Assembly: GCA_021776415.1 (NCBI GenBank)
Contig: JAJFFY010000007.1
Location: 62,001-126,000 of the forward strand
Reading direction: 5' to 3'
Source: Hyphococcus sp.
GTDB lineage: Bacteria > Pseudomonadota > Alphaproteobacteria > Caulobacterales > Parvularculaceae
Length of the DNA stretch: 64,000 bases
The notes beneath the pieces were generated by a model. It saw nothing but the letters and a program-made list of their open reading frames with translations. It was not told where the DNA came from and searched no databases. Positions 39,788 through 58,233 of this stretch are shown here, piece by piece. Numbering within the stretch: the stretch's first letter is position 1; each line of letters begins with the position of its first letter. The position numbers were made by a program, and so were the translations under genes.

Positions 39788-39813
39788 AACTATAATAAGG
39801 ACAGACGGCGCGG

Positions 39814-41307
39814 ATGAAACGAATTGGACATATTATTGGCGGTGATGGGATCGCCGAGGGCGATGTAACGAGCCCGGTGTTTAATCCCGCAACGGGCCAG
39901 CAGAGCGGCGAGGTTTTGCTTGGCGGGGCGGATGAGGTTGCGCTGGCGGTGAACGCCGCCAAAGTCGCCTTGCCTGATTGGTCGGCGATGCCTCCGGCCA
40001 AACGTGCTGGTGTCATGTTTGGTTTGCGCGAAGTTATGAAGGCGCGCAGTGATGAGATTGCTGAAACCATCAGCGCAGAGCACGGCAAGACCCATGATGA
40101 TGCGCTGGGTGAGGTGACGCGCGCTTTGGAAGTTGTTGAATTCGCCAGCGGCATTCCGCATTTGTTAAAGGGAGATTTTTCCAGCGCTGTCGCCGGCGGC
40201 GTCGATACCCATGCAGTGCGCGAGCCGCTTGGCGTTGTTGCGGGTGTCACGCCGTTTAATTTCCCGTCAATGGTGCCCCTGTGGATGATCCCGATGGCGT
40301 TGGCCTGCGGCAATACATTTGTTTTAAAACCATCAGAGAAAAACCCGTCATCGGCCAATCTCATTCACGACATGTTCACCGAAGCGGGCCTCCCCGCAGG
40401 GGTTTTAAATGTCGTTCACGGCGCCAAGGCGGCGGTTGACGCTGTGCTTGACCATCCGGATATCGCAGCGGTTAGCTTTGTCGGCTCAACCCCGGTGGCG
40501 GCATATGTCTATAGCCGGGGCTGCACGGCCGGAAAGCGTGTGCAAGCGCTCGGCGGTGCGAAGAACCATATGATTATTATGCCTGACGCCGACCTGGATC
40601 AGGCGAGCGATGCGTTGCTCGGCGCCGGCTTTGGCTCCGCCGGCGAGCGTTGCATGGCGATTTCTGTTGCGGTGCCGGTGGGGGAGGAAACCGCTGAGCG
40701 GTTGGTAGAAAAACTCGGCCCCCGCGTGCGTGCGCTCAAAATCGGTCCGAGTACGGATGGCGAGGCGGAGATGGGCCCGCTGATTACCGAGGCGCATCGC
40801 GACCGAATTGCGCAACTGATTGGCGCTGGCGAAAACGAAGGCGCGAAGATTGCCGTTGATGGACGCGGCCTGACATTGCAAGGCTATGAAGGCGGCTATT
40901 GGCTCGGCGGATCCTTGATTGATCATGTCAGGCCTGGCATGCGGGTCTATGACGAGGAGATCTTCGGCCCCGTCCTGTCGGTCGTCCGCGCGGCTGATTA
41001 TGGCGCCGCGATTGAGCTCATCGACAACAATCCGTACGCCAACGGCACGGCGATCTTTACCCGTGACGGCGATGCTGCACGTGATTTTACATCGCGCATC
41101 AAGGTTGGCATGGTCGGCGTTAATGTCCCGATCCCGGTGCCGGTTGGCTATCACAGCTTTGGCGGCTGGAAGCAGTCGATCTTTGGCGGTCACGGCATTT
41201 ACGGCCCCGAAGCGATCCATTTTTATACCCGCCTCAAAACCGTCACCACGCGCTGGCCGACCGGTATTCGTGCGGGCGCTGAGTTTAAATTTCCGACTAT
41301 GAATTAG
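39814..41307 (+). CDS. mmsA: CoA-acylating malonate/methylmalonate-semialdehyde dehydrogenase
   Basis: 497 residues, aldehyde dehydrogenase fold. Catalytic Cys280 in GSAGERC. At the position where most ALDHs have a general-base Glu there is Asn (GGAKNH, residue 251), the hallmark of the CoA-dependent MmsA/IolA group. Also GVTPFNFPSM and FVGSTPV. In this operon it should convert malonate semialdehyde (from beta-alanine) or methylmalonate semialdehyde (from thymine) to acetyl- or propionyl-CoA. The transaminase that would form the semialdehyde is not in the window. Confidence 0.92.
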   Translation: MKRIGHIIGGDGIAEGDVTSPVFNPATGQQSGEVLLGGADEVALAVNAAKVALPDWSAMPPAKRAGVMFGLREVMKARSDEIAETISAEHGKTHDDALGEVTRALEVVEFASGIPHLLKGDFSSAVAGGVDTHAVREPLGVVAGVTPFNFPSMVPLWMIPMALACGNTFVLKPSEKNPSSANLIHDMFTEAGLPAGVLNVVHGAKAAVDAVLDHPDIAAVSFVGSTPVAAYVYSRGCTAGKRVQALGGAKNHMIIMPDADLDQASDALLGAGFGSAGERCMAISVAVPVGEETAERLVEKLGPRVRALKIGPSTDGEAEMGPLITEAHRDRIAQLIGAGENEGAKIAVDGRGLTLQGYEGGYWLGGSLIDHVRPGMRVYDEEIFGPVLSVVRAADYGAAIELIDNNPYANGTAIFTRDGDAARDFTSRIKVGMVGVNVPIPVPVGYHSFGGWKQSIFGGHGIYGPEAIHFYTRLKTVTTRWPTGIRAGAEFKFPTMN

Positions 41308-41319
41308 GAGACCAATACT

Positions 41320-42189
41320 ATGACCACTCTGCGCGGCGGCCTTATCCAGATGGGCCTGAAAGGCTCAACCAACGACACGCCGGAAAACATTCGTCAGGCT
41401 ATGATTGATGCGCATATTCCGTTGATCGAAAAGGCCGGCCAGGAAGGCGTTCAGGTCTTGTGTTTTCAAGAGGTGTTCACACAGCCCTATTTCTGCCCCA
41501 GCCAGGACGTCAAATGGTATGAGGCGGCGGAGTATATTCCCGATGGCCCGACCACCAAATTGATGCAGGATTACGCAAAAAAATTCAGCATGGTGATTGT
41601 CGTTCCGATCTATGAACGCACTAATGTGGCGGGCGTTTATTACAACACTGCCGCGGTGATCGACGCTGACGGATCCTATCTAGGAAAATATCGCAAGACG
41701 CATATTCCGCAGGTCAAAGGCTTTTGGGAAAAATTCTTCTTCAAACCCGGCGCCTCCAACTGGCCAGTGTTCAACACCGCTTATTGTAAGCTCGGGGTTT
41801 ATATCTGCTACGACCGACACTTCCCTGAAGGCTGGCGGGCTTTGGCGCTGAACGGTGCTGAATATATCGTCAATCCGTCTGCGACTGTGGCGGGGCTTTC
41901 GGAATATCTGTGGAAGCTTGAACAGCCGGCGTCAGCCGTCGCTAATGGTTGTTGGATCGGCGCCATCAATCGCATCGGTGTCGAGAAGCCCTGGAATATA
42001 GGCGAATTTTATGGCCAAAGCTATTTCGTCAATCCTCGTGGAGAGATTGAGGCTGAGGCCAGCCGCGACCAGGACGAGCTTATTGTTCATGACATGAATA
42101 TGGATATGGTGCGCGAAGTGCGCGATCTGTGGCAGTTCTTCCGTGATCGGCGCCCGGATACTTATGGACCACTTGTGGTAAGCGAATAG
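41320..42189 (+). CDS. Beta-ureidopropionase (N-carbamoyl-beta-alanine amidohydrolase)
   Basis: 289 residues, nitrilase superfamily. The triad is visible: Glu51 (CFQEVF), Lys126 (KYRKTHIP) and Cys163 (YICYDRHFPE). The close context and segments such as QVKGFWEKFFFKPG fit the beta-ureidopropionase branch. It splits N-carbamoyl-beta-alanine to beta-alanine, CO2 and ammonia, the third step of reductive pyrimidine breakdown. It sits 12 bases after the semialdehyde dehydrogenase gene. Confidence 0.92.
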   Translation: MTTLRGGLIQMGLKGSTNDTPENIRQAMIDAHIPLIEKAGQEGVQVLCFQEVFTQPYFCPSQDVKWYEAAEYIPDGPTTKLMQDYAKKFSMVIVVPIYERTNVAGVYYNTAAVIDADGSYLGKYRKTHIPQVKGFWEKFFFKPGASNWPVFNTAYCKLGVYICYDRHFPEGWRALALNGAEYIVNPSATVAGLSEYLWKLEQPASAVANGCWIGAINRIGVEKPWNIGEFYGQSYFVNPRGEIEAEASRDQDELIVHDMNMDMVREVRDLWQFFRDRRPDTYGPLVVSE

Positions 42190-42225
42190 CGGCTCGCAGA
42201 TACTAACAAAAAGGCGGATCCGCCC

Positions 42226-45160
<2,935 letters not shown>

Positions 45161-45181: not shown

Positions 45182-46420
45182 CTAAAAATACCGCGTTAAA
45201 CGGAATGTCAGGAAGTCATCGTCGCGAAAAGAATTGGCGAGGTTGACTGGATCGACATTGAAAAATAACCGGCTTTCTAGTTCCGCGGTCCAGTTCTGGC
45301 CGAGGCGGCGTTCGGCCTCGATAAACATCGAAAGCGAGCTATCGTCGGCGTCAACAGAGACACCAGCCAGCATGGAGGTGTCTTGCGTATCATTGAAGGC
45401 AAGGCGCCCGCCTGCAAATACGTCATTTTGGAAAGCTGTAAACGGGGCTTCAGAGGTTAGTCCAAATGTTTCTGTGACAAATCCATCATCGCGGTCATCA
45501 TAGAGATATTCGGCCAATAGTCCCAAGTCCCATGATTTTTCGAAAATCTGGTAGATGGTGTATTCAAATCCTGCGACGCCAGCGAAAAATGTTTTGCCTT
45601 GTCCACCGCGGACAATCGCCTCGCCCTTCCATAACCATGCGCCAGCCGTATACTGAACATCCAAACTTCCCTGGGTAATGCGGTCATAGACTGGGAGAAG
45701 CTCGCCGCCTGTTGGCGCAATCACAAATCGGGGCTCGCGCGAGGTTCCGTGAAAGGCTGACACGCCGACATCCCAATTACCAAAGAAATTGGAATAGCGC
45801 ACAGCATAATCCACTGCGCCGCGCCGTGCGTTGCGTTCAAAGATCGGGTTTTCTGTGTCGATCGGCAAAGCAAACCGCAGCCGTCCATCGGGCCCGGGAA
45901 AGGTTCGGGTGCGAAACCCAGGCAGGACAAACAGATCCAGCTGCCCCCAGTCTTTCAACAGCGAGAGCTTGACCATCGGCTGGCCAAGCTTGTCCTCTTC
46001 GTCGATGTCCTCAACGCCATCGGTCTGGTTGATGATATCGACGAGATGGCGCGATTCAACCGTGCCCCAAAAAACCTTTGCGGCGCCGATAAGCAATGTC
46101 CAGTCACTATCGCTGACATAGCGATAGTATCCTTCACGCAGATCCACATGGCTGCGGCTGTCGTCCTGCGCGTCAAGGCGGCCAAAGGGAATGATGACGA
46201 TCTGGTGCTTGTCATCATCGCTTTTCCAACGCAGATCGGTTTGCAAGATTAGCGACGGCTGCCAGTGTTCGAATTGGTCAGGAAACTGGGCGCTTTGCGG
46301 GAAATAACGGACCTCGCCTGCAATCTCGCCGTCAAACTCCCATTCGCCAGCGCTCGCCCCGCCCGAGGCTGCCAGGGCTGCGCATGTCAACGCCGCAACA
46401 ATGTTCAGGCCCTGCCGCAT
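45182..46420 (-). CDS. Outer-membrane beta-barrel protein linked to RND exporter
   Basis: 412 residues. Signal peptide (about 1-24, ending ASA) followed by alternating polar/hydrophobic strands rich in Trp, Tyr and Asp, and a C-terminal aromatic residue in RLTRYF, the mark of BAM-assembled barrels. No Cys after the signal and no enzymatic motif. It lies 25 bases after the LolA-like gene, itself overlapping the RND gene, so the three form an envelope transport operon. Exact family not recognised. Confidence 0.75.
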   Translation of the reverse strand: MRQGLNIVAALTCAALAASGGASAGEWEFDGEIAGEVRYFPQSAQFPDQFEHWQPSLILQTDLRWKSDDDKHQIVIIPFGRLDAQDDSRSHVDLREGYYRYVSDSDWTLLIGAAKVFWGTVESRHLVDIINQTDGVEDIDEEDKLGQPMVKLSLLKDWGQLDLFVLPGFRTRTFPGPDGRLRFALPIDTENPIFERNARRGAVDYAVRYSNFFGNWDVGVSAFHGTSREPRFVIAPTGGELLPVYDRITQGSLDVQYTAGAWLWKGEAIVRGGQGKTFFAGVAGFEYTIYQIFEKSWDLGLLAEYLYDDRDDGFVTETFGLTSEAPFTAFQNDVFAGGRLAFNDTQDTSMLAGVSVDADDSSLSMFIEAERRLGQNWTAELESRLFFNVDPVNLANSFRDDDFLTFRLTRYF

Positions 46421-46445
46421 AATTTACTTCCTATCAGGTTTGCGA

Positions 46446-47306
46446 CTATCGAATGCGCTGCAATACGCCTTTCACGAAATCACCCTCGTCAAGTCCGGTT
46501 TTGAATTGAAACTCGGAATAGATAAGGTCGGTTTCCTTGTTGGTCTTATGATTGACCATGGCGAGTTTATGCGCCCGCCAAATACCGTCATACTCCCGGT
46601 AGTCGGACAGAGTGAGTGTCTTCAGCAGGCCGCCGCGGCGATCATAAAACTCGATCTTGCGCGCCTGATAGATATCCTGATCGATCCAGGATATCTGTTT
46701 AGTATAACCAGATTTCTCATAGCGAGGAAACCGATCGACGACATCCATCATCATGCCATCAACATCCTCTTCGCCGACATAGGCATAAGTGAATTTATTT
46801 AGCTCAGTGAGTGTGAAATCCTCAAACGCAAACTCAGAACCAACAAACGGTCCTGATTTATTTGCAGAAGAAATGCGCTTTACGCGCTTCAATGCCGGTA
46901 GAAACAACCATTGATCATCCGGATCAAGGATTTTCGCGTGCGACAAGAGCGCAGTACCTTCAACATCGCGGGGCGAATTAAAAATCACCAGAGATTTATC
47001 GCCAACGGTCTCGTTTTCTTTCTCCAGCGTTGAAAATGATAGGCTACGCTCCGATGTCTGGCCGGCGGCGTTGCGCAACACCATGCTTGCTTCCACCTTA
47101 CTGTCGCCGAAGCCGGCATCGCTACGATCGCTGCGCGCAGCTATTTCATAACCCTTTATAGATTCTGGCGTATCTCCTCTTGCCATGAGGTCGTCAGCAT
47201 GTGTGGGCTGATCTTGCGCAGATGCAGGCAGTGAGAAGAACGAGGCGCCAAGTAGTGTGACAGCTAGCGCCGCCTTAAGTGCGGACATCGAAAGAGTGTT
47301 GGACAT
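46446..47306 (-). CDS. Outer-membrane lipoprotein-sorting (LolA-like) protein
   Basis: 286 residues. Signal peptide (about 1-30, ending ASAQ). The mature part follows the LolA-like pattern often encoded beside MMPL/RND exporters: SLVIFNSPRDVEGTALLSH, DDQWLFLPALKRVKRISS and FEDFTLTELNKFTYAY. Presumably a periplasmic carrier of a hydrophobic molecule between the RND pump and outer membrane. The start overlaps the RND gene by 32 bases (or 14 from the next ATG). Confidence 0.85.
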   Translation of the reverse strand: MSNTLSMSALKAALAVTLLGASFFSLPASAQDQPTHADDLMARGDTPESIKGYEIAARSDRSDAGFGDSKVEASMVLRNAAGQTSERSLSFSTLEKENETVGDKSLVIFNSPRDVEGTALLSHAKILDPDDQWLFLPALKRVKRISSANKSGPFVGSEFAFEDFTLTELNKFTYAYVGEEDVDGMMMDVVDRFPRYEKSGYTKQISWIDQDIYQARKIEFYDRRGGLLKTLTLSDYREYDGIWRAHKLAMVNHKTNKETDLIYSEFQFKTGLDEGDFVKGVLQRIR

Positions 47307-49653
47307 ATTCGTCTCCTTTCACGTCAATTGTTTCGCCAGAAAACCGCGCCAGTAATAGCAGCAGCGTCGGCAGAAAGAGAAAATCAAGGATCAGCGCGAA
47401 ACCAATTGTCAATGAGGTTAGCATCCCCATCTCCTCATTGATCTTAAACGCCGAAAGCGTCAGCACCAAGAAGCCTGTGCCAAGGATTACCGTATTGACA
47501 ATGATCGCCACCCCAACAGTTTCAAACGCATAACGGATCGAGTCGGCTGAGGACAAACCTTTGTCTCGGCGCGCGCGCATGTATTTTGCAAGAAAATGCA
47601 CAGTATCGTCGATGACAATCCCCATAGAGATCGCAGCGATGGCGGCGACTGAGAATCCGACCTCGCCCACCAGGATCGCCCAGGCGCCAAATGCAGAGAG
47701 GATTGGCAGCGCGTTTGGCACCAGACTGATTAAACCCATGCCAACGCTGCGCAACGCCAAAATCATAATGATCGCAATGGCGATTATGGCGATAGACGTG
47801 CCTGCGACCATGCTTTCAACATTGCGCTGGGCGATGAAAGTGAACATCACCTGTGGACCGGTCGCTGATGTTTTTATTTCGGGCGCATTATCCTCAAACC
47901 ATTTCTCAGACTGCTTGAGGAATTCACGCACCCGTTTTGTGGTCACGCGGCCGTCTAGCGTTGCGGTGACGCGTGTCGCGGATTTGTCGATATTGATGCG
48001 GTCGTTGAGATCAAGCCCATAAGGAAGCGACAATTCGTAAAGTAACAGATATTGAGCGGCCAGCTCGCGTTCGTCTGGCAGTCGGTAAAACGCTGGATCA
48101 TCAGCATTTAAGTTTTTGTTTAGCCGCTTCATGATGTCGGTGATAGAATAGACATGGGTTACATCCGGCTGAGCTCTCAACCACTCTGTGTAGGCTTCAA
48201 TCTTTTGTAAAAAACCTGGTTCATTAACACCGCCAGGCTCATTGGCCGGAACCGAATACTCAATTGGATAGAAACCAAAATATTCTATTACCAAATCACT
48301 CTCGGCGCGAAATTCGATGCGTGGTGCAAAATATTCCCTCCATTGATCACTGAGTTCAATCGTCGGGATAAACGAGATCAACGCGGCTGCGCTAATTCCG
48401 ATAATGAGGAGGAGAGCTCGAAACCGTCCGATCACGAAATTGGCAAAACCCAGCATTACCTGGTTGCGTGTTTGTCCTGCAGCGCGCGATTCTACGCGAA
48501 TTGGAGCCAGGCTTAAGAGGGCGGGAAGTAACGTGATGGACAAAAACCAGGCGGCGAAAATGCCGACGGCTGTAATAGTTCCTAAATCTTGAAACGGCGG
48601 CGAGTCAGAAAAGCGGAGCGACAGAAATCCGACAACAGTGGTTATTGATGTCACGCCAATCGGCAGGAAATTGATGCGCATGGCCTCGACGATAGCTGCG
48701 TGTTTTTTTAGCCCATCGCGCATCGCAGCGCGCATTGAAATCAGGATATGAATTGAATCTGCGATTGCCAATGTCAGGATAATCACTGGTGCGCTGGGGC
48801 TTGGGCCAGCGAGTTTTATGCCGATATAGCCGGCAAAGCCCATAGCGATCATTGTTGATAGAATGATGATTGTGAGGGTTGCGGCGGTAGCTGAAATAGA
48901 CCGAACGCTGATTGCGGTCAGGACGAGCACTACCAGAAACATTAATGGCACTAACGTGGCTAGGTCATCACTTACAGCTTCGGCAAAGGCGTTGTTCAGC
49001 ATCGAGGTGCCGGTGAGGTAGACATCGAGATTGGGAAATTTTTCCTTGATCATATCTCTTGTAGTGCGCGCCACAGCGACCGCTTCGGGCACTTCGGTCA
49101 ATGCTTTTTCAGGATATTGAAGAACCACATTGACGGCGGTTACTTTTCCGTCAGTGGTAATGAGCTGGTTGCGCAGGAGCGGTTCGGCGAGCGCAATATC
49201 GCGTTTTTCGATGAGCTCCTCAGGCGTCAGGTTGCGGGCGTCATTGATCAGATCCTCGACGATCAAATCGTCTTCAACCGCATAAGTATATTGGAAATTA
49301 CTGAGCGAATCGACGCGCAGCGCATAAGGGATTTGCCAACCTTCTTCGGTTAGAAGCTCAACTGCGGCCAGCGTGTCGTTTGTAAATGCCCCGCTCCCGT
49401 CCTTTGTTTTAAGTACAAACAGGAATGTATCGCTTTTTGTGTAAGTGCTTTGAAACTCTTCAAACGCCTGTAATTCAGGGTTTTGTTTAGAAAAGAACGC
49501 GCGGTAATTGTTAGAAAATTCAAGTTGTGATGCATATGAACCAATGGCAACCGCACCCGCAACACTGGCTGCAATAACGATCCATCGCAGTTTGATCATC
49601 CATCGCGCCAGCTCGCTGGCAAAAGTATCCAGCAGTTTATTAGATGCAGCCAT
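47275..49653 (-). CDS. RND superfamily exporter (MMPL type)
   Basis: 792 residues. Twelve membrane segments in two SSD-like halves (first helix about 27-47; central bundles about 230-385 and 620-770) with two periplasmic loops. Segments such as VPLMFLVVLVLTAISVRSISA and GIVIDDTVHFLAKYMR are typical of the MMPL/hydrophobe exporter group, which moves lipids or hydrophobic compounds rather than acting as a tripartite drug pump. A TetR gene lies 51 bases upstream; the LolA-like and barrel genes follow. Confidence 0.92.
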   Translation of the reverse strand: MAASNKLLDTFASELARWMIKLRWIVIAASVAGAVAIGSYASQLEFSNNYRAFFSKQNPELQAFEEFQSTYTKSDTFLFVLKTKDGSGAFTNDTLAAVELLTEEGWQIPYALRVDSLSNFQYTYAVEDDLIVEDLINDARNLTPEELIEKRDIALAEPLLRNQLITTDGKVTAVNVVLQYPEKALTEVPEAVAVARTTRDMIKEKFPNLDVYLTGTSMLNNAFAEAVSDDLATLVPLMFLVVLVLTAISVRSISATAATLTIIILSTMIAMGFAGYIGIKLAGPSPSAPVIILTLAIADSIHILISMRAAMRDGLKKHAAIVEAMRINFLPIGVTSITTVVGFLSLRFSDSPPFQDLGTITAVGIFAAWFLSITLLPALLSLAPIRVESRAAGQTRNQVMLGFANFVIGRFRALLLIIGISAAALISFIPTIELSDQWREYFAPRIEFRAESDLVIEYFGFYPIEYSVPANEPGGVNEPGFLQKIEAYTEWLRAQPDVTHVYSITDIMKRLNKNLNADDPAFYRLPDERELAAQYLLLYELSLPYGLDLNDRINIDKSATRVTATLDGRVTTKRVREFLKQSEKWFEDNAPEIKTSATGPQVMFTFIAQRNVESMVAGTSIAIIAIAIIMILALRSVGMGLISLVPNALPILSAFGAWAILVGEVGFSVAAIAAISMGIVIDDTVHFLAKYMRARRDKGLSSADSIRYAFETVGVAIIVNTVILGTGFLVLTLSAFKINEEMGMLTSLTIGFALILDFLFLPTLLLLLARFSGETIDVKGDEYVQHSFDVRT

Positions 49654-49704
49654 GGTTTACTCCTATAACGACGCCTCAGCATCTATCGCGACGCAGTCCG
49701 CGTA

Positions 49705-50373
49705 TTAATTCGATACCTGTTTGACGGTTGTAGCTTTTTGATTTCGGCGCATGGAGCGCTGGTTATGGGCGCCACTCTCGCGTCTCAAGAGGCGTAGGCA
49801 CGTATTGAATAAAGTTAGCAGTTCATCCTTGCCGGCGCCGTTGCGCGCCATAGCCCCGACGCCAAGCATGTTAGCGATCAGTAGTGCAGCGCCTTCCTTC
49901 GGCGTAATGGATGGGTTTAGCTCGCCTCGCTCTTTAGCTTGCATCAACGCCATCTCATCGGCGTTACGTATCTCTTCGAGATAGCTGAGCACGCGCTTCG
50001 ATACGGCTTTGTCATAACGCCCGACTTCCGCTGCGACATCGCACATGAGGCATCCGGCTCCACGGTCCGTCATTTCAGTGATGCAGTATTCGGAGACTTC
50101 GCGTATTGCCGCCATCGGTCCGCCTTGCGGATCGCTCAAGGCCGTAAGGAACAAATTTTTGCGCTCACTGAAATAGCTTTCCAGTACAGCTAAAAAGAGC
50201 TCCAGCTTGCCCCCGAAAGCATTATAGAGCGCATATCTGTTCAGACCGGTCGCGCAAACCACATCCTCAATCGAAGTTTCATCGTAACCTTGACGCCAAA
50301 ACAGCTCTTTGGCTGCGTTAATGGGGACGATTAAAGTTGGTTCTCTTAGCGCGATATCGGCTTGTGGGGTCAT
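49705..50373 (-). CDS. TetR/AcrR-family transcriptional regulator
   Basis: 222 residues. The N-terminal HTH (about 30-62) reads TSIEDVVCATGLNRYALYNAFGG (two blocks); the rest is a helical ligand domain with an SYFSERKNLFLTAL stretch. It is the first gene before the RND-LolA-barrel genes on the same strand, and inverted/direct repeats just upstream of its start are likely its operator. It may repress the whole set until a hydrophobic ligand binds. Confidence 0.92.
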   Translation of the reverse strand: MTPQADIALREPTLIVPINAAKELFWRQGYDETSIEDVVCATGLNRYALYNAFGGKLELFLAVLESYFSERKNLFLTALSDPQGGPMAAIREVSEYCITEMTDRGAGCLMCDVAAEVGRYDKAVSKRVLSYLEEIRNADEMALMQAKERGELNPSITPKEGAALLIANMLGVGAMARNGAGKDELLTLFNTCLRLLRRESGAHNQRSMRRNQKATTVKQVSN

Positions 50374-50424: not shown

Positions 50425-50815
50425 CAAGCCCTGAGTTGAAAAAATAAATATACCAATAAAATCAGTGGCTTGCTGTGTTAGGCAAGTGGTGCACTGCTTT
50501 TTGGGTATAGGTTTGCCCGGCCCGTAGCGGTGTGGAGGAGAACTGACCTGCATAAAGAAATTGCTCAGTGTGAGGATAGGTTATGTGGTTGGCGTGGTAT
50601 TTCTCCCGCGTTAAGACGGGCGACACAGAGTATTGTGAGCAGATGGGTTTCGGGAAATGAACACCATGCGGAAAATTGACCGCATGATTGATCATATTTT
50701 TTCTTTTCGGCGGTGGCCGTCTTTTTGAGTATCCTCGCGCATGGCGCCACCGTGGCGCCGTTTCCCAGTCGATATGGTGAACCAGCGCTGCTGGTTGATG
50801 GCTGCTGAGGCTGAG
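50425..50815. other. Intergenic region with several inverted repeats
   Basis: About 390 bases with no supported gene. Perfect inverted repeats: CATGCGG/CCGCATG (50665-50686), GGCGCCA-CCG-TGGCGCC (50743-50759) and AACCAGC-GCT-GCTGGTT (50780-50796). The last two lie just past the stop of the 265-residue protein gene and may end its transcript, but neither has a proper T-run. Confidence 0.5.
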
Positions 50816-51613
50816 TTAAATGCGTGTATAAGCATTAGCGTTAGCGCGAAACTGCAGCATGTCGCCGACCTGAACGATTTCACCTTCCGCCTCAACCGGA
50901 TCCGCGACCAAGGGCAGAATACCCATCGGCATCGGGCCGCCATCGGCCGTCGTCATTAGCAAAACAGATTCAGCGCCGTCCCTCGTCCGCACCCAGAGGC
51001 TTGGCGGTATGCCGCCGCGGATGCAAAGGCTGGCGCAGGCTTTATGGGTCTTGCCGCGGCCGGGGCGCATAACCCCGAAAAAACATTTCGAATCCATGAT
51101 CGCGCCCGTAAGCCGGGCGGCCCCCAAAGATTTCACTGGCGGGCTGACAACAGCGGCGGCCAGTTCCATTTTTGCCGGCGTGAGCCAGTCGTCGAGAAAT
51201 GGCGGCACTTCCAGCATTTGGCGCTGCTTACGCTGAATAAGGACGCCGCGCGCCGTGACCGGGCTGCCGCGCTGGTCGTTCAGCTGCAGTGCAGAGGTGC
51301 ATTTGCCCTGCGCGACGACCAACACCGTGCGAACGCCGCCGGGCGCTGTCTGGTCGATGATGCGTATCATCGGATAGGGATCCGTGATCAACGTGCCGGA
51401 AATCTCATGGCTCGCGCCGGTCAGCCAGGCGCCGGCGCCGGGATCGTCAAGTTCACTGGCGATCAGCCAGGCGGCGCCGCCAGCCCCGGCAAGGCCGAGT
51501 GGCAGAGCGCCAAGAAGGAAACGGCGATCGACGGTGGGCGCCTCGGCCCAACCGACAAACATCTCGTCGGGATTTTTCGGCTCAGGACCGATCACGCCTT
51601 TGGGCAGGCTCAT
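50816..51613 (-). CDS. Membrane-anchored Cys-motif protein of redox module, unknown function
   Basis: 265 residues. A single membrane segment (about 31-51) preceded by DRRFLLG, which resembles but does not match a Tat signal. The exported part has two beta-rich regions (about 68-135 and 165-265). The second opens with a striking motif, TGAIMDSKC, then PGRGKTHKACASLC and GGIPP: Cys177, His190, Cys193 and Cys197. These could bind metal, haem or an iron-sulphur centre. The start overlaps the stop of the Rieske gene as ATGA. No family name known to me. Confidence 0.75.
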   Translation of the reverse strand: MSLPKGVIGPEPKNPDEMFVGWAEAPTVDRRFLLGALPLGLAGAGGAAWLIASELDDPGAGAWLTGASHEISGTLITDPYPMIRIIDQTAPGGVRTVLVVAQGKCTSALQLNDQRGSPVTARGVLIQRKQRQMLEVPPFLDDWLTPAKMELAAAVVSPPVKSLGAARLTGAIMDSKCFFGVMRPGRGKTHKACASLCIRGGIPPSLWVRTRDGAESVLLMTTADGGPMPMGILPLVADPVEAEGEIVQVGDMLQFRANANAYTRI

Positions 51614-52677
51614 GTCGCAACACTTTCTTGTTCGGGGATGATGGCAGGTTCCGTGCGCGTGCCCGGCGGGTTTGGTTTTGGGTCGACTAACACGCGGCCG
51701 GCCTCGATTTTGACATTGTAGGTGGCAATTTTTTCCGTGAAGGGCGGCGGCGATACGCCGTCATCGGGCCGGTATTGCCATCCGTGCCAAGGGCAGGTGA
51801 TGCAGCCATCGATAACCCGCCCCTCACCCAACGGTCCGTTCTGATGGCGGCAGGCATTGGTGACGGCCGAGATTTTGTTATCGTAGCGGAACACCGCAAC
51901 ACGGTCGCCTTTCGGCAGCGGCGCAATAACCGCGCGCATGTTTGGAATATCGTCCGGCGCACCGATTTCAATCCAGCCCTTTGCCTTCAGAGATTTCATG
52001 CCGTTGTCCGCACGCCATTCGCGATACCCGGTATAAAGATGAAGCGCTGATATGGAGATGAAAGTGACCGCCGTCATGATAGGATAAATTACTGACTTCT
52101 CGGTCATCAAGGCGCCAAGGACGATATGAAAAACCAGCAACACATAAGCCGGGTAGACCAGCATATGCAGCGCTTTCCAGGCCGGGGCGGAGAGGTTGTT
52201 CAGCCAGAAGTCATGGCTTGTTGCAGCCATCACAAAAAGAATGAGGAAGGCGGCAAAACCCAGCACTTCAAACGGGAAGCCGGGAATGGAATCATAGAGC
52301 GGGTTACTGACAAACAGCGACACCAGCGGATTGAGCGGTCCGCTGCTGTGATACCACAACAGCGCCAATCCGAAATGCGCGGAGGCGACGATAAACGTCA
52401 TCACGCCGAGATGGCGCCGGTTATAGAGCATGGGTGAAAACCGCGGCGATATCCGCGCTAATGGGCCAACCGCCAAAATAACCGTGAGCAATGTAAACGT
52501 GGCGACGCCAAGGGCGCGAATCATCAAGACCACCGGATCAGCAGTGTGGCCGGTCGGCTGGATTTGAAGCCCGACCACCATGAAAACGCCGATAAACACC
52601 ACCACCACAATGACCGTATAGAGATCATATACGATTTTGTTCTTATTCCATTGTATGGCCTTGTATTGATGGCCCAT
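51610..52677 (-). CDS. Ferric-reductase-like membrane protein fused to a Rieske [2Fe-2S] domain
   Basis: 355 residues. Residues ~15-215 form six or seven membrane helices of the ferric reductase/MsrQ type with candidate haem ligands His89, His101, His171 and His184. Residues ~235-340 are a Rieske domain with Cys276-x-His278 and Cys295-x-x-His298 (CRH, CPWH). It should move electrons across the membrane between haem and a [2Fe-2S] centre; donor and acceptor are unknown. ATGA overlaps on both sides tie it to the 53-residue and 265-residue proteins. Confidence 0.88.
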   Translation of the reverse strand: MGHQYKAIQWNKNKIVYDLYTVIVVVVFIGVFMVVGLQIQPTGHTADPVVLMIRALGVATFTLLTVILAVGPLARISPRFSPMLYNRRHLGVMTFIVASAHFGLALLWYHSSGPLNPLVSLFVSNPLYDSIPGFPFEVLGFAAFLILFVMAATSHDFWLNNLSAPAWKALHMLVYPAYVLLVFHIVLGALMTEKSVIYPIMTAVTFISISALHLYTGYREWRADNGMKSLKAKGWIEIGAPDDIPNMRAVIAPLPKGDRVAVFRYDNKISAVTNACRHQNGPLGEGRVIDGCITCPWHGWQYRPDDGVSPPPFTEKIATYNVKIEAGRVLVDPKPNPPGTRTEPAIIPEQESVAT

Positions 52678-52838
52678 CAGGGTTGTCCCGTTGTATCTGG
52701 GAGATTATGGATCGCAGCAGGGAGGTCCGTATAAGGGATTTGCGGGCGCTGGCTCCACGATATGACGGCGCCGATGATGGCGACGGGCGTTACAATCAGC
52801 CAGAACAGGAAATGCACGCGCCGGTGAGGGCGTTTCAT
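52677..52838 (-). CDS. 53-residue single-pass membrane protein of redox module
   Basis: A small gene that is easy to miss. The N-terminus MKRPHRRVHFLFWLIV is basic, followed by a helix to about residue 28 and a Pro-rich tail ending GQP. It overlaps the stop of the 82-residue gene (ATGA, 52835-52838) and the start of the Rieske gene (ATGA, 52674-52677), which strongly supports translation. Predicted single membrane helix with His residues at 5 and 9 near the cytoplasmic side. Perhaps a small subunit that stabilises the reductase complex; function unknown. Confidence 0.75.
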   Translation of the reverse strand: MKRPHRRVHFLFWLIVTPVAIIGAVISWSQRPQIPYTDLPAAIHNLPDTTGQP

Positions 52839-53083
52839 GATGCGCTCCCGCCTGGTGGGTTAACATCAGGCTGGTTGATTTTTTTCAAGGAAAAAAATCG
52901 CAAGATGATATATGGCCATAACGCGACACATCCGAGAAAAACCATTGGCCTGAAAAACGGGCTGGCGCCTTTGGCGGCGTGGTCAATGCGCGAGACCCCG
53001 AAACCAAGAAATAAAATTGCGACAACGATCCCCGCGCCGAAATAGATGCCGAGGCAAGCAACGACTGTTTCTGCGAGCGCCAT
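52835..53083 (-). CDS. 82-residue two-helix membrane protein of redox module
   Basis: From the ATG at 53083 (an upstream in-frame start adds 14 unconserved residues). Two membrane helices (about 5-29 and 46-62) joined by a loop with VSRIDHAAKG, and a short basic C-terminal tail. First gene of a four-gene run with ATGA overlaps; GGGAG lies 13 bases before the start. Probably an inner-membrane partner of the ferric-reductase/Rieske protein. Family not recognised. Confidence 0.75.
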   Translation of the reverse strand: MALAETVVACLGIYFGAGIVVAILFLGFGVSRIDHAAKGASPFFRPMVFLGCVALWPYIILRFFSLKKINQPDVNPPGGSAS

Positions 53084-53393
53084 GTTACTGTGCGCTCCCT
53101 GGGTGCGAGACGACAAGGGCGCCAAGTCTCATATGGGAAATGAAAAGCAGTGTTTTTAGCATCAATTTTCTCGCCTTTCATCGCCCTGCAGGCGGCCTCA
53201 TCTGATTATGGTTTGCACCACCCTATTTGTTCCGCTCAAAATTGCAAAACACGATTGCGATAACAGCTGCAAGCCAGCTATCGGATGAGATTGATCTGAC
53301 GTTGAAAGCTATACTTTCCAGAATTTTCGGCAAGGGCCAGTTTCGGGCATAGATACTGGCGCGCTACAAGGATCCGCAACGAGGAGAACACCG
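53084..53393. other. Intergenic region upstream of the redox module
   Basis: 310 bases between the start of the redox module and a small plus-strand gene. It should contain promoters in both directions. No clear operator, RNA gene or reading frame was recognised. Confidence 0.5.
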
Positions 53394-53522
53394 ATGAGCG
53401 ATGCGACGCTGGAAAATATTCAGCGAAATTTGCTGCCACTCGAGGACAGGGTAAAATCGGTAATGGTCGGAAGGCTCTGGCCGCTGGTGGAAGTGCTGCT
53501 CACCGACGCAGAGTTGGTGTAG
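53394..53522 (+). CDS. 42-residue orphan ORF with strong ribosome site
   Basis: The ATG is preceded by GAGGAGAA six bases upstream, a near-ideal ribosome site. The 42-residue product is amphipathic helical (EDRVKSVMVGRLWPLVEVLL), without membrane segment or signal. It ends 9 bases before the stop of the convergent TonB receptor gene. It could be a true small protein or the remnant of a longer gene cut off by rearrangement. No similarity recognised. Confidence 0.4.
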   Translation: MSDATLENIQRNLLPLEDRVKSVMVGRLWPLVEVLLTDAELV

Positions 53523-53531
53523 GGACAAAGA

Positions 53532-56500
53532 TTAGAAGTTTACACGCGTTGAGAACGAATATCGGCGGCCAATTACATCGTAGAAAGTTATCGGCCTGTT
53601 ATTAAGCCGAGAAAAAACGGATAGTGGCGGATCTTTATCAAATATGTTTTCGACACCAAATTGCAAATAGATGCTATTATTCAATTCCATCCGAAGGCTG
53701 GTATCTAGATAGGAAACAGCGGGAACTCTTACTTCGGGTGTGCCGGAGCCGGCCGTCATTACCTTGCCGCGACGGTTGAATAGAAATGCAAGACTTATAG
53801 GTCCTCGATCAATTCCTGCAGAAACGAGACTTTGATGGCGCGGAAAGTTAAACTGCCCGTCCAGTTGTGCAACATCACCATGTTGGTCGATGAGCGCCAC
53901 ACGATCAGTATAGGTATGTAAGGCGTTAATCCAGAGGCGATCAAACAAGGCCCCTGATTCCGGCTTCAGAGCGTAGTGCGCTTCAATATCTAGTCCTTGC
54001 CAATTCGTCGCGCCGACATTTCTGGCAGTTTGTTCAGTAGATATGATTTGCTGAGTGATTGGATCACGCCTTATGCGGGGGTTGCCCGTAAGCGGATTAA
54101 GTCCGCAACTGTCATCGGACAAGTCGGCACTGAGAAAACATTCAAGCACTAGGTCGTTTCCGGTAAATGTAATTTGATTTGAAATTTGATATGCGAGCCA
54201 CGTTGCTGTGATGTCCATTTTCCCCGGTATCAAGGTAATGAGTTCAGTCGGTCTAACAGTGGTGCTCACTCCGTAAAATTTCACTTTCTCTGGCGATAGC
54301 TCCGGGTTGCCAAAAGTAGTAACCTGCGCAAGTGTGTTGTCTTGCATGAAGCCGCTGTCTACGCCAAGCGGCGTGTCACTCATGCAATTTTCAGAAATTG
54401 TTGGCGGAGGTGAATCAAGATCATTACCACAAGGGTCGAACACCGGAAACCCGGTGGTTGGGGATACCGCGAACAACTCGACGATACTTGGTGCGCGATG
54501 ACCGAGATGTCGAAAAACTGAGAACTCCACCACATCGTTCGGCCGCCAAGTTGCATTGGTTTCAAAATTGGTAAAACTATTGTACACGGATGATCTGGAC
54601 AGTCTAAAATCGGTAGAGATCTCTAGTGCTCCAATCCAACTGGGCGAGTCTAGTAAGGGAATGTCTATATTACCGTAGAAGTCATTTTTAAATAATACGC
54701 CTCTGGCCGCGGGAGTATTGTCGGTGCCAATCAGTATGATATCCGGTCTAGAGCTTGCATTGGTTTTCATCAATGAATGCTCAAAATCTGCGCCGACTTG
54801 AAGGGTGATGTCATTTGTTAGTATGCCGGTCAGTGATTTGTTGACTGAAATTGAGACCTCATGTCTTTCAAGGATGTATTTGGAATTAACTGGCGGCGAT
54901 CGCACAAATTGTTTTGCCTGGCTTGATGTTCCGGAAAGTGCAAAGAAATCGATTGGCGCGCAGCCAGGCGTTGCCGCGCAAATGTTTGGTTGTAGTGCTG
55001 TGGCCACATTTGCTCCATTCACCCTGTTGCGAATTGTCCAATCGGCTTGAGTTTTGCCAAAGCGATACGACAGCGCATATCGTTCCTTTTCGTTTCTAGA
55101 GAATTCTGCGCCAATGATGAGGTCAAGATAGTATCTGTTAATCTTGTCGCGCCGCGGGCCAAGCTCCACATAGCGACGATCAAGAACAACAGATTGCACA
55201 GGGCCGCTAAAATTATCCTGCACCAGGTCAAGCACCGATTGGGGTAGTGTCGGGTTCGTAAACGGTATTGCGACTGCGCTACCAGTTGTCAGATCAGGGC
55301 CCCGCCTGCGTGAGGCTGGAGTGGGGGCGAGTTGCAGTTCAGTTGCAATTAATCCTGCTTGGATATCCGCATAAAGACGCAGCGAGTTTGAAGGGTTAGC
55401 CGAGCCGGACATATAGCCCATGAATCGATTGAGTTCTGGAACAAGCGCAGTTTGGTCAATAGCATTAAACAATTGGTCGGACGAGCTGATAAACGGCGAA
55501 ACCGTTCCGTCCTGGTTTGGAACAAACGCGCCGCCCCCGGGGAATTGCGCAAACGATCCATCATTCAAGACGACGCCCTGGATTCGTCCTGTTTCAGTAA
55601 AGCTGCTTGGGATGGCGTCCTCGCTCGTGAACGGCCTGTCGGCCCCTAAAAGCCCGGTGCTTTGTGCAATGTATGCGCCGATAGTAAGGTTAGCGCTATT
55701 TTGTAAGAGGTCCTTTCCGCCAACAAAATGCAGCGACAGCTGTTCACGATCGCCAAAATCTGAAACTCCGTAATGTGCTCCGGCTTCGGCGCCTTTTAGG
55801 TTTGAACGCAGGACAAAATTCACCGCCCCGACTGTCGCGCCGCTTCCATGCCGCGCGCTAGCGGGCGTGGTTTGTATTTCCACGCGCTCGAGAAATGGTG
55901 TTGCGAAACGATTGAGGTCAACGCCAAAAGCAGGATCTGGCTCACTAAATGTTGGGGTGACGGGGCGGCCATTGACGAGCACCATGCTGCGGTTTGGCCC
56001 CAGTCCGCGCATATCTAAGAAGCTGACGCCAGCTAGAGCGCCATTTAGAACGGTATTTGTTGGCGTGATGGAAGCGAGCGTCTGAGGTAGATCAAAGATT
56101 GCACGATCAGGTGTTGCGGCGTTGAAGTAGGTTAAATATCGCTCGTCCAGCTCGAATATTTTTCCTGAACTGACAGGGGAAACTTTTACTGCGGATGATG
56201 AAGTGACAATAATTACATCATTAAACGGCCTGGCCTCTTCGGGTCGCGCGTTTATCTTCGATACATCCGTATTCTGAATGACTGTAATAACGAAAGTTTT
56301 TTTAGAAATCTTTTTTAGTTGCAGGTCTGCATCGGCGAGATATTCTGTAAGTGTTTCTGCAAGCTCCGTGGAGTTTATTATTGGTTTAATTTTTTTCCCT
56401 GTTACCACCCGACTATCAAATATAAACGACCAGCCAAACTGGCGGTGAATTTCATTAAGAACGGTTTCTAGAGGAAATTTTCCGTCGGTTGTGGCCTGCC

Positions 56501-56624
56501 CCGGGTAAGTGCTCGCAATGTCAGCTTCAGAGGTCTGAATGCGGTTTTCTGCATGCGCGACACAAAGAGAGATTGTAATTGCGGCAGCAGCGGAGGAAAA
56601 TAAAATTACGCGGAGGCTGCGCAT
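53532..56624 (-). CDS. TonB-dependent receptor with N-terminal STN signalling domain
   Basis: 1030 residues. Signal peptide (about 1-25), STN domain (about 45-120: LETVLNEIHRQFGWSFIFDS), plug (about 140-275 with VSFLDMRGLGPNRSMVLVNGRP) and a 22-strand barrel ending in FSTRVNF. STN receptors signal substrate binding to FecR. It follows fecR directly, which completes a sigma/anti-sigma/receptor module. The long extracellular loops suggest a sizeable substrate, such as a siderophore or oligosaccharide; nothing in the sequence names it. Confidence 0.93.
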   Translation of the reverse strand: MRSLRVILFSSAAAAITISLCVAHAENRIQTSEADIASTYPGQATTDGKFPLETVLNEIHRQFGWSFIFDSRVVTGKKIKPIINSTELAETLTEYLADADLQLKKISKKTFVITVIQNTDVSKINARPEEARPFNDVIIVTSSSAVKVSPVSSGKIFELDERYLTYFNAATPDRAIFDLPQTLASITPTNTVLNGALAGVSFLDMRGLGPNRSMVLVNGRPVTPTFSEPDPAFGVDLNRFATPFLERVEIQTTPASARHGSGATVGAVNFVLRSNLKGAEAGAHYGVSDFGDREQLSLHFVGGKDLLQNSANLTIGAYIAQSTGLLGADRPFTSEDAIPSSFTETGRIQGVVLNDGSFAQFPGGGAFVPNQDGTVSPFISSSDQLFNAIDQTALVPELNRFMGYMSGSANPSNSLRLYADIQAGLIATELQLAPTPASRRRGPDLTTGSAVAIPFTNPTLPQSVLDLVQDNFSGPVQSVVLDRRYVELGPRRDKINRYYLDLIIGAEFSRNEKERYALSYRFGKTQADWTIRNRVNGANVATALQPNICAATPGCAPIDFFALSGTSSQAKQFVRSPPVNSKYILERHEVSISVNKSLTGILTNDITLQVGADFEHSLMKTNASSRPDIILIGTDNTPAARGVLFKNDFYGNIDIPLLDSPSWIGALEISTDFRLSRSSVYNSFTNFETNATWRPNDVVEFSVFRHLGHRAPSIVELFAVSPTTGFPVFDPCGNDLDSPPPTISENCMSDTPLGVDSGFMQDNTLAQVTTFGNPELSPEKVKFYGVSTTVRPTELITLIPGKMDITATWLAYQISNQITFTGNDLVLECFLSADLSDDSCGLNPLTGNPRIRRDPITQQIISTEQTARNVGATNWQGLDIEAHYALKPESGALFDRLWINALHTYTDRVALIDQHGDVAQLDGQFNFPRHQSLVSAGIDRGPISLAFLFNRRGKVMTAGSGTPEVRVPAVSYLDTSLRMELNNSIYLQFGVENIFDKDPPLSVFSRLNNRPITFYDVIGRRYSFSTRVNF

Positions 56625-57605
56625 TTACTCATCCTTTTTGGACAAAATAAATGTGCCATTTTCAATCTCGTTGTTAAGATCGAAGATTAACGTGATCGCA
56701 TCGATTGCGGCTGCTTGATCTGTTATGTCAAATTCGCCGGTCACAGGAAGCATTGAAAGTGATGCATCGCGCAGAATAATTTTTCTGTTAAAGTACCGGT
56801 TAAGCTCGTCCACGACTTGATGAAGGGGAGCTTGCGCGAAGCGCAGCTTTCCAGCTGTCCACGCAAGAACATCAATTGGATCAAATGGCGTGATGGCGCC
56901 GGCATCGCCATTGCTATCGACATGTATGCTATCGCCTTTACCGAGTGTTCGCATCTGGCCGGAGATGGGCTTGACCTGAACCGTTCCAGCAACAACGAAT
57001 ATCTCTGTATCCTTCTTTGATGCCAGGACGTTAAATGTTGTCCCGGTTACAATGATTTCAACTGCGGGCAATTCAACAATGAACGGCTTGGCCTCATTGC
57101 GCTCGACATTAAATATTGCCTCGCCTTCTTCGAAGCTTATGACCCGGTTGGAGCGAGTGTACTCAACCGCCAAAGTTGTGGCGGTGTTCATATTAATGCT
57201 GCTGCCGTCGTTAAGGCTGACGGAACGGATTTCGCCAACCGCTGTCGCATAGATTTGAGGTTGCGGGCGGGGCGAATAATTGAAAAATATTGTTGCCGAC
57301 AGGGTAAGAAAAGCGAACGCTATTGAGGCGGCGAGCGCGGGCATTTTCCATGCCGCTGCTTTTTGCGCCTCTAAATGCAGCTCGTCTTCAAACATATCAG
57401 ACAAAATCGATTGCGCCGCGGCGTCGGTGTGGGTTAACGCATCTTCTATACGTTTAAAGGCGAGGCGGTTAGCTTCGGACGATTCCAGCCACTGAGCATA
57501 AGTTGCTCGTTCATCAGCCGTCATCGCTCCGGACATATGCTTTGCATGCCAAAAAGCTGCTTCTTCTGACGAGCGTGCGAACCCGTATGAAATAACATTA
57601 TTCAT
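56625..57605 (-). CDS. FecR-type anti-sigma/sigma-regulator protein
   Basis: 326 residues. Cytoplasmic DUF4880-like head (about 10-60: AAFWHAKHMSGAMTADERATYAQWL in two blocks), one membrane helix (about 92-110), a FecR domain (about 120-215: EIRSVSLNDGSSINMNTATTLAVEY in two blocks) and a C-terminal STN-like domain (about 250-320). Relays receptor occupancy to the ECF sigma factor. It overlaps the sigma gene by 8 bases and abuts the receptor gene. Confidence 0.93.
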   Translation of the reverse strand: MNNVISYGFARSSEEAAFWHAKHMSGAMTADERATYAQWLESSEANRLAFKRIEDALTHTDAAAQSILSDMFEDELHLEAQKAAAWKMPALAASIAFAFLTLSATIFFNYSPRPQPQIYATAVGEIRSVSLNDGSSINMNTATTLAVEYTRSNRVISFEEGEAIFNVERNEAKPFIVELPAVEIIVTGTTFNVLASKKDTEIFVVAGTVQVKPISGQMRTLGKGDSIHVDSNGDAGAITPFDPIDVLAWTAGKLRFAQAPLHQVVDELNRYFNRKIILRDASLSMLPVTGEFDITDQAAAIDAITLIFDLNNEIENGTFILSKKDE

Positions 57606-58233
57606 TTGCGGTCACTTTTTTTCGTTGTGGGTGACCCGTATGCCGACTGACGGTTTTTTGTATTGGCGGGGCTTGTTCCAGTGCGTCACGCAGAAGCTTC
57701 AATGCGGCGATGATATATTTCTCAACGCTGCTTTCCGACACTTTCATAGCAGCGGCTATTTCTCTGTAGTTCATATTTTCGAAACGGCTCATGATGAACG
57801 CCCGCCGAATGCGGTCAGGCAGTTGCTTGATGGCGGCAATACCGGTTTTTAGGTCCTGTTTTGCGGCTGTGATTTGTTCGGGAGAAGGAGCGTCGGACGC
57901 AAGATTTTCAATCTTATTGAGGTCATTGTCGTCATCTGCTCGGGGCGTCATGCGCTCAATAAAGCGCATGCGATGCCGGGCCCGAAATTCATTTGCGGCA
58001 AGGTTCGCTGCAGTTTTGAAAATCAACGCTTGCGGGTTATCAATTTCGTTGTGTTCGGCATAGCGCCAAATGCGCAGATAGGCGCTTTGGGCAATATCTC
58101 GCGCCGCCTCCCGGTCTCCGATTTTTTTCGTTAACCACTGCACCAGCATGCGGTCGTGCTTGCGAATAGCGCGATCAACCAGCTTATCACGGGCAACGTC
58201 TGAGTGCTTGCGAGAGTTATCGTCCAGCGCCAT
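57598..58233 (-). CDS. FecI-type ECF RNA polymerase sigma factor
   Basis: 211 residues. Region 2 with DREAARDIAQSAYLRIWR (about 40-57) and region 4 with YREIAAAMKVSESSVEKYI (about 158-176) are clear. A basic C-terminal tail follows. Expected to transcribe the receptor gene when FecR is relieved by the loaded receptor. First gene of the sigma-fecR-receptor operon, preceded by a structured 341-base region. Confidence 0.93.
   Translation of the reverse strand: MALDDNSRKHSDVARDKLVDRAIRKHDRMLVQWLTKKIGDREAARDIAQSAYLRIWRYAEHNEIDNPQALIFKTAANLAANEFRARHRMRFIERMTPRADDDNDLNKIENLASDAPSPEQITAAKQDLKTGIAAIKQLPDRIRRAFIMSRFENMNYREIAAAMKVSESSVEKYIIAALKLLRDALEQAPPIQKTVSRHTGHPQRKKVTANE

Follow-up and report, generated by a model that had tools for sequence, protein, structure and literature searches.

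Membrane conduits of the FRD family, among them MsrQ, STEAP and NOX, draw their electrons from flavin or NAD(P)H domains or from quinones. The four-gene module described here, g1 to g4, is encoded on the minus strand of a 64,000-nucleotide stretch of DNA from Hyphococcus sp. (assembly GCA_021776415.1, contig JAJFFY010000007.1, positions 62,001 to 126,000; hereafter the window), and its membrane protein g3 combines an FRD-type haem domain with a Rieske domain. As in YedZ/MsrQ of the MsrPQ system, the haem b membrane domain of g3 has three His (H101, H171 and H184 in g3) with Arg in place of the fourth, and MsrQ transfers electrons to a periplasmic partner, as is proposed for g3; Fre has been proposed as a separate cytosolic donor of MsrQ (PMC5676040; this and the other articles cited by PMC number are represented here by excerpts). 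Unlike MsrQ, g3 ends in a Rieske domain and has further invariant residues, H89, H155 and H213, and unlike MsrPQ the module includes two extra small subunits and, in g4, a probably anchored Cys protein with OB-like domains instead of a molybdenum cofactor (Moco) enzyme. No gene for MsrP was found beside g3, the only PF00174 protein of this genome, which is 84.99% complete, being encoded on contig C80; with no Moco MsrP gene alongside, and with the MsrQ equivalog NF003831 matching g3 only weakly (8e-14, 51.6 bits against a cut-off of 130), g3 was not assigned to MsrPQ.

Rieske has been listed among the electron-transfer domains fused to bacterial FRD by Zhang et al. 2013 (PMC3591440), where FRD-Rieske appears as a domain combination, the excerpted text giving no operon, no counterparts of g1, g2 or g4 and no partner enzymes. 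STEAP1-4 provide the top-ranking solved fold for the membrane domain of g3 (Z 16.4-16.9 over 190-198 residues for STEAP1/2/4), NOX5 being nearly tied (Z 15.7); in STEAP2-4 the NADPH domain in use is N-terminal (PMC3591440), while g3 has a C-terminal Rieske domain instead. That domain shares its fold and ligands with the Rieske ferredoxins of dioxygenases, such as BphA3, CarAc and the naphthalene dioxygenase ferredoxin (Z about 16 over about 104 residues), but unlike them it is fused to a membrane haem domain, and no ring-hydroxylating oxygenase was seen among the neighbour genes read. Taken together, g3 is a member of the FRD superfamily that would work like MsrQ or STEAP with a Rieske contact, and it falls outside MsrPQ, NOX/FRE and, by its predicted topology, the Rieske proteins of cytochrome bc1 type.

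We tentatively propose, at a likelihood a little short of even, that the module is an electron conduit between cytosolic enzymes tagged with their own Rieske domain and the periplasm. The principal candidate donor is RTPP, a Rieske domain joined to a PoxB-like thiamine pyrophosphate (TPP) enzyme; a second client would be RGS, in which a Rieske domain precedes the flavin mononucleotide (FMN) domain of glutamate synthase (GltS). The four proteins would form one inner-membrane complex, and we infer that they are made in a fixed ratio. As the conduit, g3 would offer a haem b domain with six helices that belongs to the YedZ/MsrQ-STEAP-NOX superfamily, and its Rieske ferredoxin of dioxygenase type, on the cytoplasmic side, would replace the flavin/NAD(P)H reductase domain and serve as a plug for docking and electron exchange. 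Electrons would most likely pass from RTPP through a Rieske-Rieske contact to the haem b and on to the C-M-H-C-C site of g4, g1 and g2 being putative small structural subunits; that g4 binds a metal and hands electrons to a final acceptor we infer as well.

All four genes are intact in the window, with the coordinates, strand and lengths that an earlier note, made from the sequence alone, had given. The first, g1 (52835-53083), encodes 82 aa with two predicted transmembrane (TM) helices and a conserved WP, and g2 (52677-52838) encodes 53 aa with one predicted TM helix and conserved R, H and W, so that both are, as that note had it, tiny membrane proteins by hydropathy. They are followed by g3 (51610-52677; 355 aa), with six TM segments, and g4 (50816-51613; 265 aa), with a single, N-terminal one. 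The note had described three ATGA junctions; four-base ATGA overlaps are present at g1/g2 (52835-52838) and g3/g4 (51610-51613), but g2 and g3 meet at TGATG and share a single base (52677). No match to g1, g2 or g4 was found in Pfam and NCBIfam at E<=1. Ratios of nonsynonymous to synonymous substitution (dN/dS) against the closest relative, locus L029, are 0.11, 0.18, 0.10 and 0.11 for g1 to g4, and against L031 they are 0.14, 0.39, 0.08 and 0.20, which makes g2 the least constrained of the four; purifying selection on g1, g3 and g4 clearly persists in the window.

The association of these genes is conserved well beyond this genome. Within the set of 60 relatives, g4 occurs in 24 genomes, the window's own (G000) included, at 28 places, and g3 is directly upstream at 27 of them, the other being truncated where its contig ends. 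The complete set, in its order, was seen at 25 of the 28 places, the exceptions being two contig ends and one fusion of g1 with g2. Among 385 genomes of the class, 18 have g3 (E<=1e-60) and 16 of the same 18 have full-length g4, which 27 genomes matched in all, 11 of them with short forms only. At 18 loci from the class and phylum sets, g3 precedes g4 and g1 is present every time, and a separate g2 was recognised at 14; the g1 profile was built partly from open reading frames joining g1 and g2, and the ranges of these two genes are approximate. In the phylum sample, full-length g4 was found in 7 of 398 genomes, all within the class (11 matched; three had short forms only, and G747, outside the class, with a match of 7e-5 and a stop, was dropped). 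Five Rhizobium plasmids match g4 and g3, three of them inspected and showing the four-gene order, and a distant copy of the module is present in L055. The earlier note had called for a search of other genomes for the same gene order, and had held that its idea of a membrane redox unit of haem, Rieske and a periplasmic Cys protein would fall if the genes were not conserved together or matched a characterised system; the genes do keep together, no matching characterised system was found in the open-licence PMC literature, and domains and conservation support the unit.

In g3, residues 56-182 match PF01794 (5.5e-14; 52.7 bits against a gathering cut-off of 28), which places it in the FRD superfamily, and residues 235-320 match the Rieske family PF00355 (2.6e-14; 53.3 bits against 20.3), in agreement with the haem-binding reductase-like domain and Rieske centre read there before. 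In 14 aligned sequences, 45-91% identical to the g3 of the window, the Rieske ligands C276, H278, C295 and H298 (CxH...CxxH) are invariant, as are the six His at 89, 101, 155, 171, 184 and 213 and R87/R88. The short form of FRD, represented by YedZ and STEAP1, has three conserved His and Arg at the fourth site (PMC3591440); g3 fits this pattern with H101, H171, H184 and, near the fourth site, R87/R88, and therefore one haem b per g3 is likely. The loop charges follow the positive-inside pattern, most clearly in loop 2-3 and the C-terminal linker, and because of this and the six TM helices the Rieske domain is predicted to face the cytoplasm. An AlphaFold2 model of g3 has a pLDDT of 81.6.

Other assignments for g3 were considered. 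It scores 49.6 bits against the MamZ model NF040998 (cut-off 650). Pfam revealed neither an FAD nor an NAD(P)H domain in it, the Rieske domain alone following the membrane domain, which sets it apart from long-form NOX/FRE proteins, where both stand at the C-terminal end. The topology predicted from the six TM helices and the positive charge of the C-terminal linker, with the Rieske domain inside, does not suit an outer-face Rieske of cytochrome bc1 type, and charges and helix count likewise point away from an outer-face, Tat-exported domain as in actinobacterial Rieske proteins (PMC5449189). With its membrane domain resembling those of NOX5 and NOX2 (Z 13.6-15.7), g3 might be thought to generate superoxide, but the lack of FAD and NAD(P)H domains and the replacement of one canonical haem His out of four, at the fourth site, by Arg make this very improbable.

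The candidate acceptor, g4, was described earlier as an exported protein with the arrangement C177, H190, C193 and C197. These residues are present where expected and, with D174, K176 and M182, invariant in 18 aligned sequences, C105 being variable; the protein is, however, probably anchored and not freely exported, since its one TM segment (residues 30-53) is N-terminal. Twin Arg precede this helix in 13 of the 18 sequences and are absent from those of Rhizobium. In the AlphaFold2 model (pLDDT 74.8), the N-terminal helix is followed by two OB-like domains. A fold search returned generic OB folds, with a best Z of 7.1, which is low and may reflect merely a common arrangement; it singled out no family, and the absence of a family from its list excludes nothing. 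A profile search of the PDB gave three marginal matches only, MalE1 twice (0.06) and superoxide reductase (0.18).

Small secreted-looking proteins resembling the C-terminal domain of g4, with the motif WCY...M...AHHxCAxWCAxGGIP, also occur. A SCO1/SenC gene lies near these short relatives in 14 of 20 loci, the query's own included (L082, L085-L087, L089, L092, L094, L095, L118-L120 and L122-L124; confirmed by Pfam in two), and in L082, L086 and L092 the two are separated by another small Cys protein (GNCxxNCGxGKRQLG). One protein of each kind was scanned, and neither matched Pfam. From this neighbourhood, copper is a fair guess for the putative metal of g4.

The most informative part of the analysis lies in the Rieske-tagged cytosolic partners, which the earlier note, confined to one sequence, could not see. 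In close relatives, the gene immediately ahead of g1, in the same orientation, is that for RGS, whose stop codon is a single base away from g1 in L029; a divergent gene encodes RTPP, and a PF00999 antiporter (family assigned in L029) comes after the module. RTPP and/or RGS are present in the locus of the module at 11 of the 34 loci examined: both at L029, L033, L037, L044 (own genus), L096, L106 and L111, RTPP alone at L046, L047 and, 6.7 kb away, L114, and RGS alone at L101. The linkage extends to other families (L096, L101, L106 and L111). In G273 and G437, which belong to one genus, a Rieske-FMN_red flavoprotein follows g3 directly and g4 was not detected.

PoxB of E. coli, pyruvate:quinone oxidase, has a C-terminal end that serves as a membrane-binding tail. 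It is the best solved relative of RTPP (6e-62), with which its RHE and GDG stretches align; RTPP differs from PoxB in carrying a Rieske domain at its N-terminus, and the alignment ends at PoxB residue 527 of 572, nothing in RTPP matching the C-terminal end. RTPP may reach the membrane through its Rieske domain rather than by a PoxB-like C-terminal end. RGS matches the large chains of glutamate synthase. Its enzyme half is 67-71% identical to versions tagged with CDGSH, known as type 5 CISD, in which a CDGSH pair is fused to the glutamate synthase FMN domain (PMC3174974); unlike these, RGS has a Rieske domain replacing the CDGSH pair, and this swap tracks the membrane module.

In the set of relatives, all 20 genomes with Rieske-type RGS and all 20 with RTPP lie within the 24 that have g4. 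RGS matched 22 of the 60 genomes; in 19 of them the Rieske start was seen, one (G019) was truncated by its contig but counted, and two were of CDGSH type. In the class, g3 accompanies Rieske-type RGS in eight of 10 genomes, compared with a frequency of 18 in 385 for g3 across the class (Fisher p 1.7e-10), and in a sample of 250 class genomes, which does not cover all 18 with g3, six of the seven with plain RTPP have g3. The class search for RGS matched 62 of 385 genomes, from which 10 of Rieske type (nine seen from residues 1-6, and G402, cut by a contig end, counted) and four of CDGSH type were kept; 48 with distant glutamate-synthase-like proteins only (35-42% identity, aligned from residue 138 or later) were left out. 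By comparison, six genomes encode the same glutamate-synthase-like enzyme bearing a CDGSH pair where RGS has Rieske, and five an RTPP with added CDGSH or CDGSH-Fer4_19-CDGSH, and the module is present in none of either group; CDGSH was recognised by Pfam in three of the six GltS-type and four of the five TPP-type proteins and by motif reading in the remainder. Pooled, the module accompanies 27 of 29 Rieske-type against 0 of 6 CDGSH-type RGS, and 25 of 26 against 0 of 5 for RTPP; at family level the contrasts are 7/9 against 0/6 (p 0.007; two families on both sides) and 5/6 against 0/4 (p 0.048). Three different cytosolic redox enzymes bearing the plug of the membrane protein would make an unlikely coincidence, although the statistics lose force through shared descent. 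The TPP oxidase-like proteins of L186 and L188-L191, about 800-930 aa long, carry stacked Fe-S domains, namely a CDGSH pair or CDGSH, Fer4_19 and CDGSH, followed by Rieske, and their genomes lack the module.

The proposed conduit from RTPP through g3 to g4 builds on what was observed of the conservation of the genes, of domains and their invariant ligands, of topology signals and of co-occurrence. Several points weigh against it. The support is wholly computational, and the genomes are not independent by descent, which weakens the co-occurrence statistics. Neither RTPP nor RGS is nearby in 23 of the 34 loci, and no Rieske-type RGS was matched in 10 of the 18 class genomes that have g3; conversely, plain RTPP occurs without g3 in G062, as does RGS in G132 (67% complete) and G402. 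In the Rhizobium clusters, a TPP enzyme without Rieske, together with CoA transferase, OpgC and SDR genes, lies by the module. The lone PF00174 (Oxidored_molyb) protein of the genome (C80, 101314-101823; L195) is not linked to the module, which lies with the window on contig C57. Because of the 23 loci without a linked partner and this unlinked protein, our confidence in the conduit is slightly lowered. Genes for a TPP enzyme, a class III CoA transferase and OpgC-type and TPR proteins were observed beside the module in L056-L058, L097 and L098, from Rhizobium plasmids and one other family.

Electrons might instead flow inwards, from quinol or the periplasm through g4 and the haem of g3 to the cytosolic Rieske domain and on to RGS, as ferredoxin feeds the ferredoxin-dependent glutamate synthase. 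The placing of RGS directly ahead of g1 on the same strand, one base away in L029, its glutamate synthase large-chain domain and the described use of the quinone pool by MsrQ (PMC11564096) all suit such a direction. However, transfer from quinol or haem b to an FMN enzyme of low potential should, on general grounds, run uphill unless energised, and RTPP, by its PoxB-like family an electron source, co-occurs with the module equally well, so we consider inward flow unlikely.

The neighbourhood of the module in the window bears on another possibility. On the plus strand, 53171-53470 holds a decayed 5' remnant of the divergent RTPP gene, intact in close relatives (blastn 69-73% to L029, L030 and L031); by tblastn it consists of fragments split by frame changes and a stop. 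A weak match of 54 bp at 53111-53164 (minus strand; blastn to L031 only, E=3e-4) is a possible small remnant of RGS, and 50713-50784 (plus strand) is the remnant of the antiporter 3' end (blastn to L029 5915-5986, 81% over 72 bp). RTPP, RGS and the antiporter have been lost from this locus, and g1 to g4 outlived them. The same genome carries a second RTPP-RGS-antiporter set on contig C68, whose products are 63%, 70% and 37% identical, respectively, to the linked copies of L029. This set (L065, 4809-10625) runs antiporter, RGS, RTPP and includes a 291-aa protein without a Pfam match; in L187 a protein 31% identical to the latter follows RTPP.

Genes for a TonB receptor, FecR and an ECF-type sigma factor occupy 53532-58233 of the window. 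They adjoin the module because the intervening genes have decayed in this genome; close relatives carry other genes there, whose remnants the window holds, and for this reason the TonB, FecR and sigma-factor genes were rejected as functional partners. On the other side, 45182-50373 encodes a TetR-like regulator and an MMPL/RND transporter, both syntenic in L029, as well as a LolA_like/DUF1329 protein and a beta-barrel-like protein; two of the four were scanned and the others assigned by reading. Positions 37158-45160 hold a probable cluster for reductive pyrimidine/hydantoin degradation, by reading only.

A periplasmic copper or iron reductase, or a metal-handling complex, with g3 acting like STEAP/FRE and g4 as its metal-binding partner, is quite unlikely. 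The fold of g3 is close to that of the STEAP metalloreductases, though NOX5 is nearly tied; the SCO1/SenC genes near short relatives of the g4 C-terminus hint at copper; the TonB, FecR and sigma-factor genes adjoin the module; and 4 of the 31 neighbourhoods (L051, L052, L106 and L113) have an RND permease. However, the TonB receptor is adjacent only through decay, the one permease tested scores higher as multidrug type (437 bits) than as CusA/CzcA (282), all below cut-off, and g3 is without an FAD/NAD(P)H domain, though STEAP1 has none either (PMC3591440).

Repair of periplasmic proteins, with g3 acting as MsrQ and with g4 or an unlinked enzyme of MsrP type reducing oxidised residues, is improbable. 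The weak NCBIfam match to MsrQ, below cut-off, the shared pattern of three His plus Arg and the PF00174 protein of the genome are in its favour; that protein is encoded on a contig other than that of the module, the OB-like domains of g4 show no Moco fold, and MsrQ has no Rieske domain.

In the open-licence PMC literature, no account was found of the operon, of Rieske-TPP or Rieske-GltS fusions, the proposed partner enzymes, or of the swap between CDGSH and Rieske. The FRD-Rieske architecture is already on record (PMC3591440, 2013, as excerpted). If the conduit from Rieske-tagged enzymes to the periplasm is real, it may belong to a wider scheme, which we put forward as a somewhat doubtful proposal: the FRD-Rieske complex would be a common socket, of which TPP oxidases, GltS-like enzymes and FMN_red enzymes become clients by gaining a Rieske plug, their CDGSH-bearing homologues using a different carrier, and oxidation of 2-oxoacids would be coupled to a periplasmic protein with a copper or iron site without quinone or NADH. 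A conduit of this kind would be an undescribed way to move electrons from central metabolism across the membrane and a directly testable case of plug-and-socket evolution in electron transfer, with Rieske on the enzymes where the conduit is present and CDGSH where it is absent, and it would give a function to families that have had none, namely g1, g2, g4, Rieske-TPP and Rieske-GltS.

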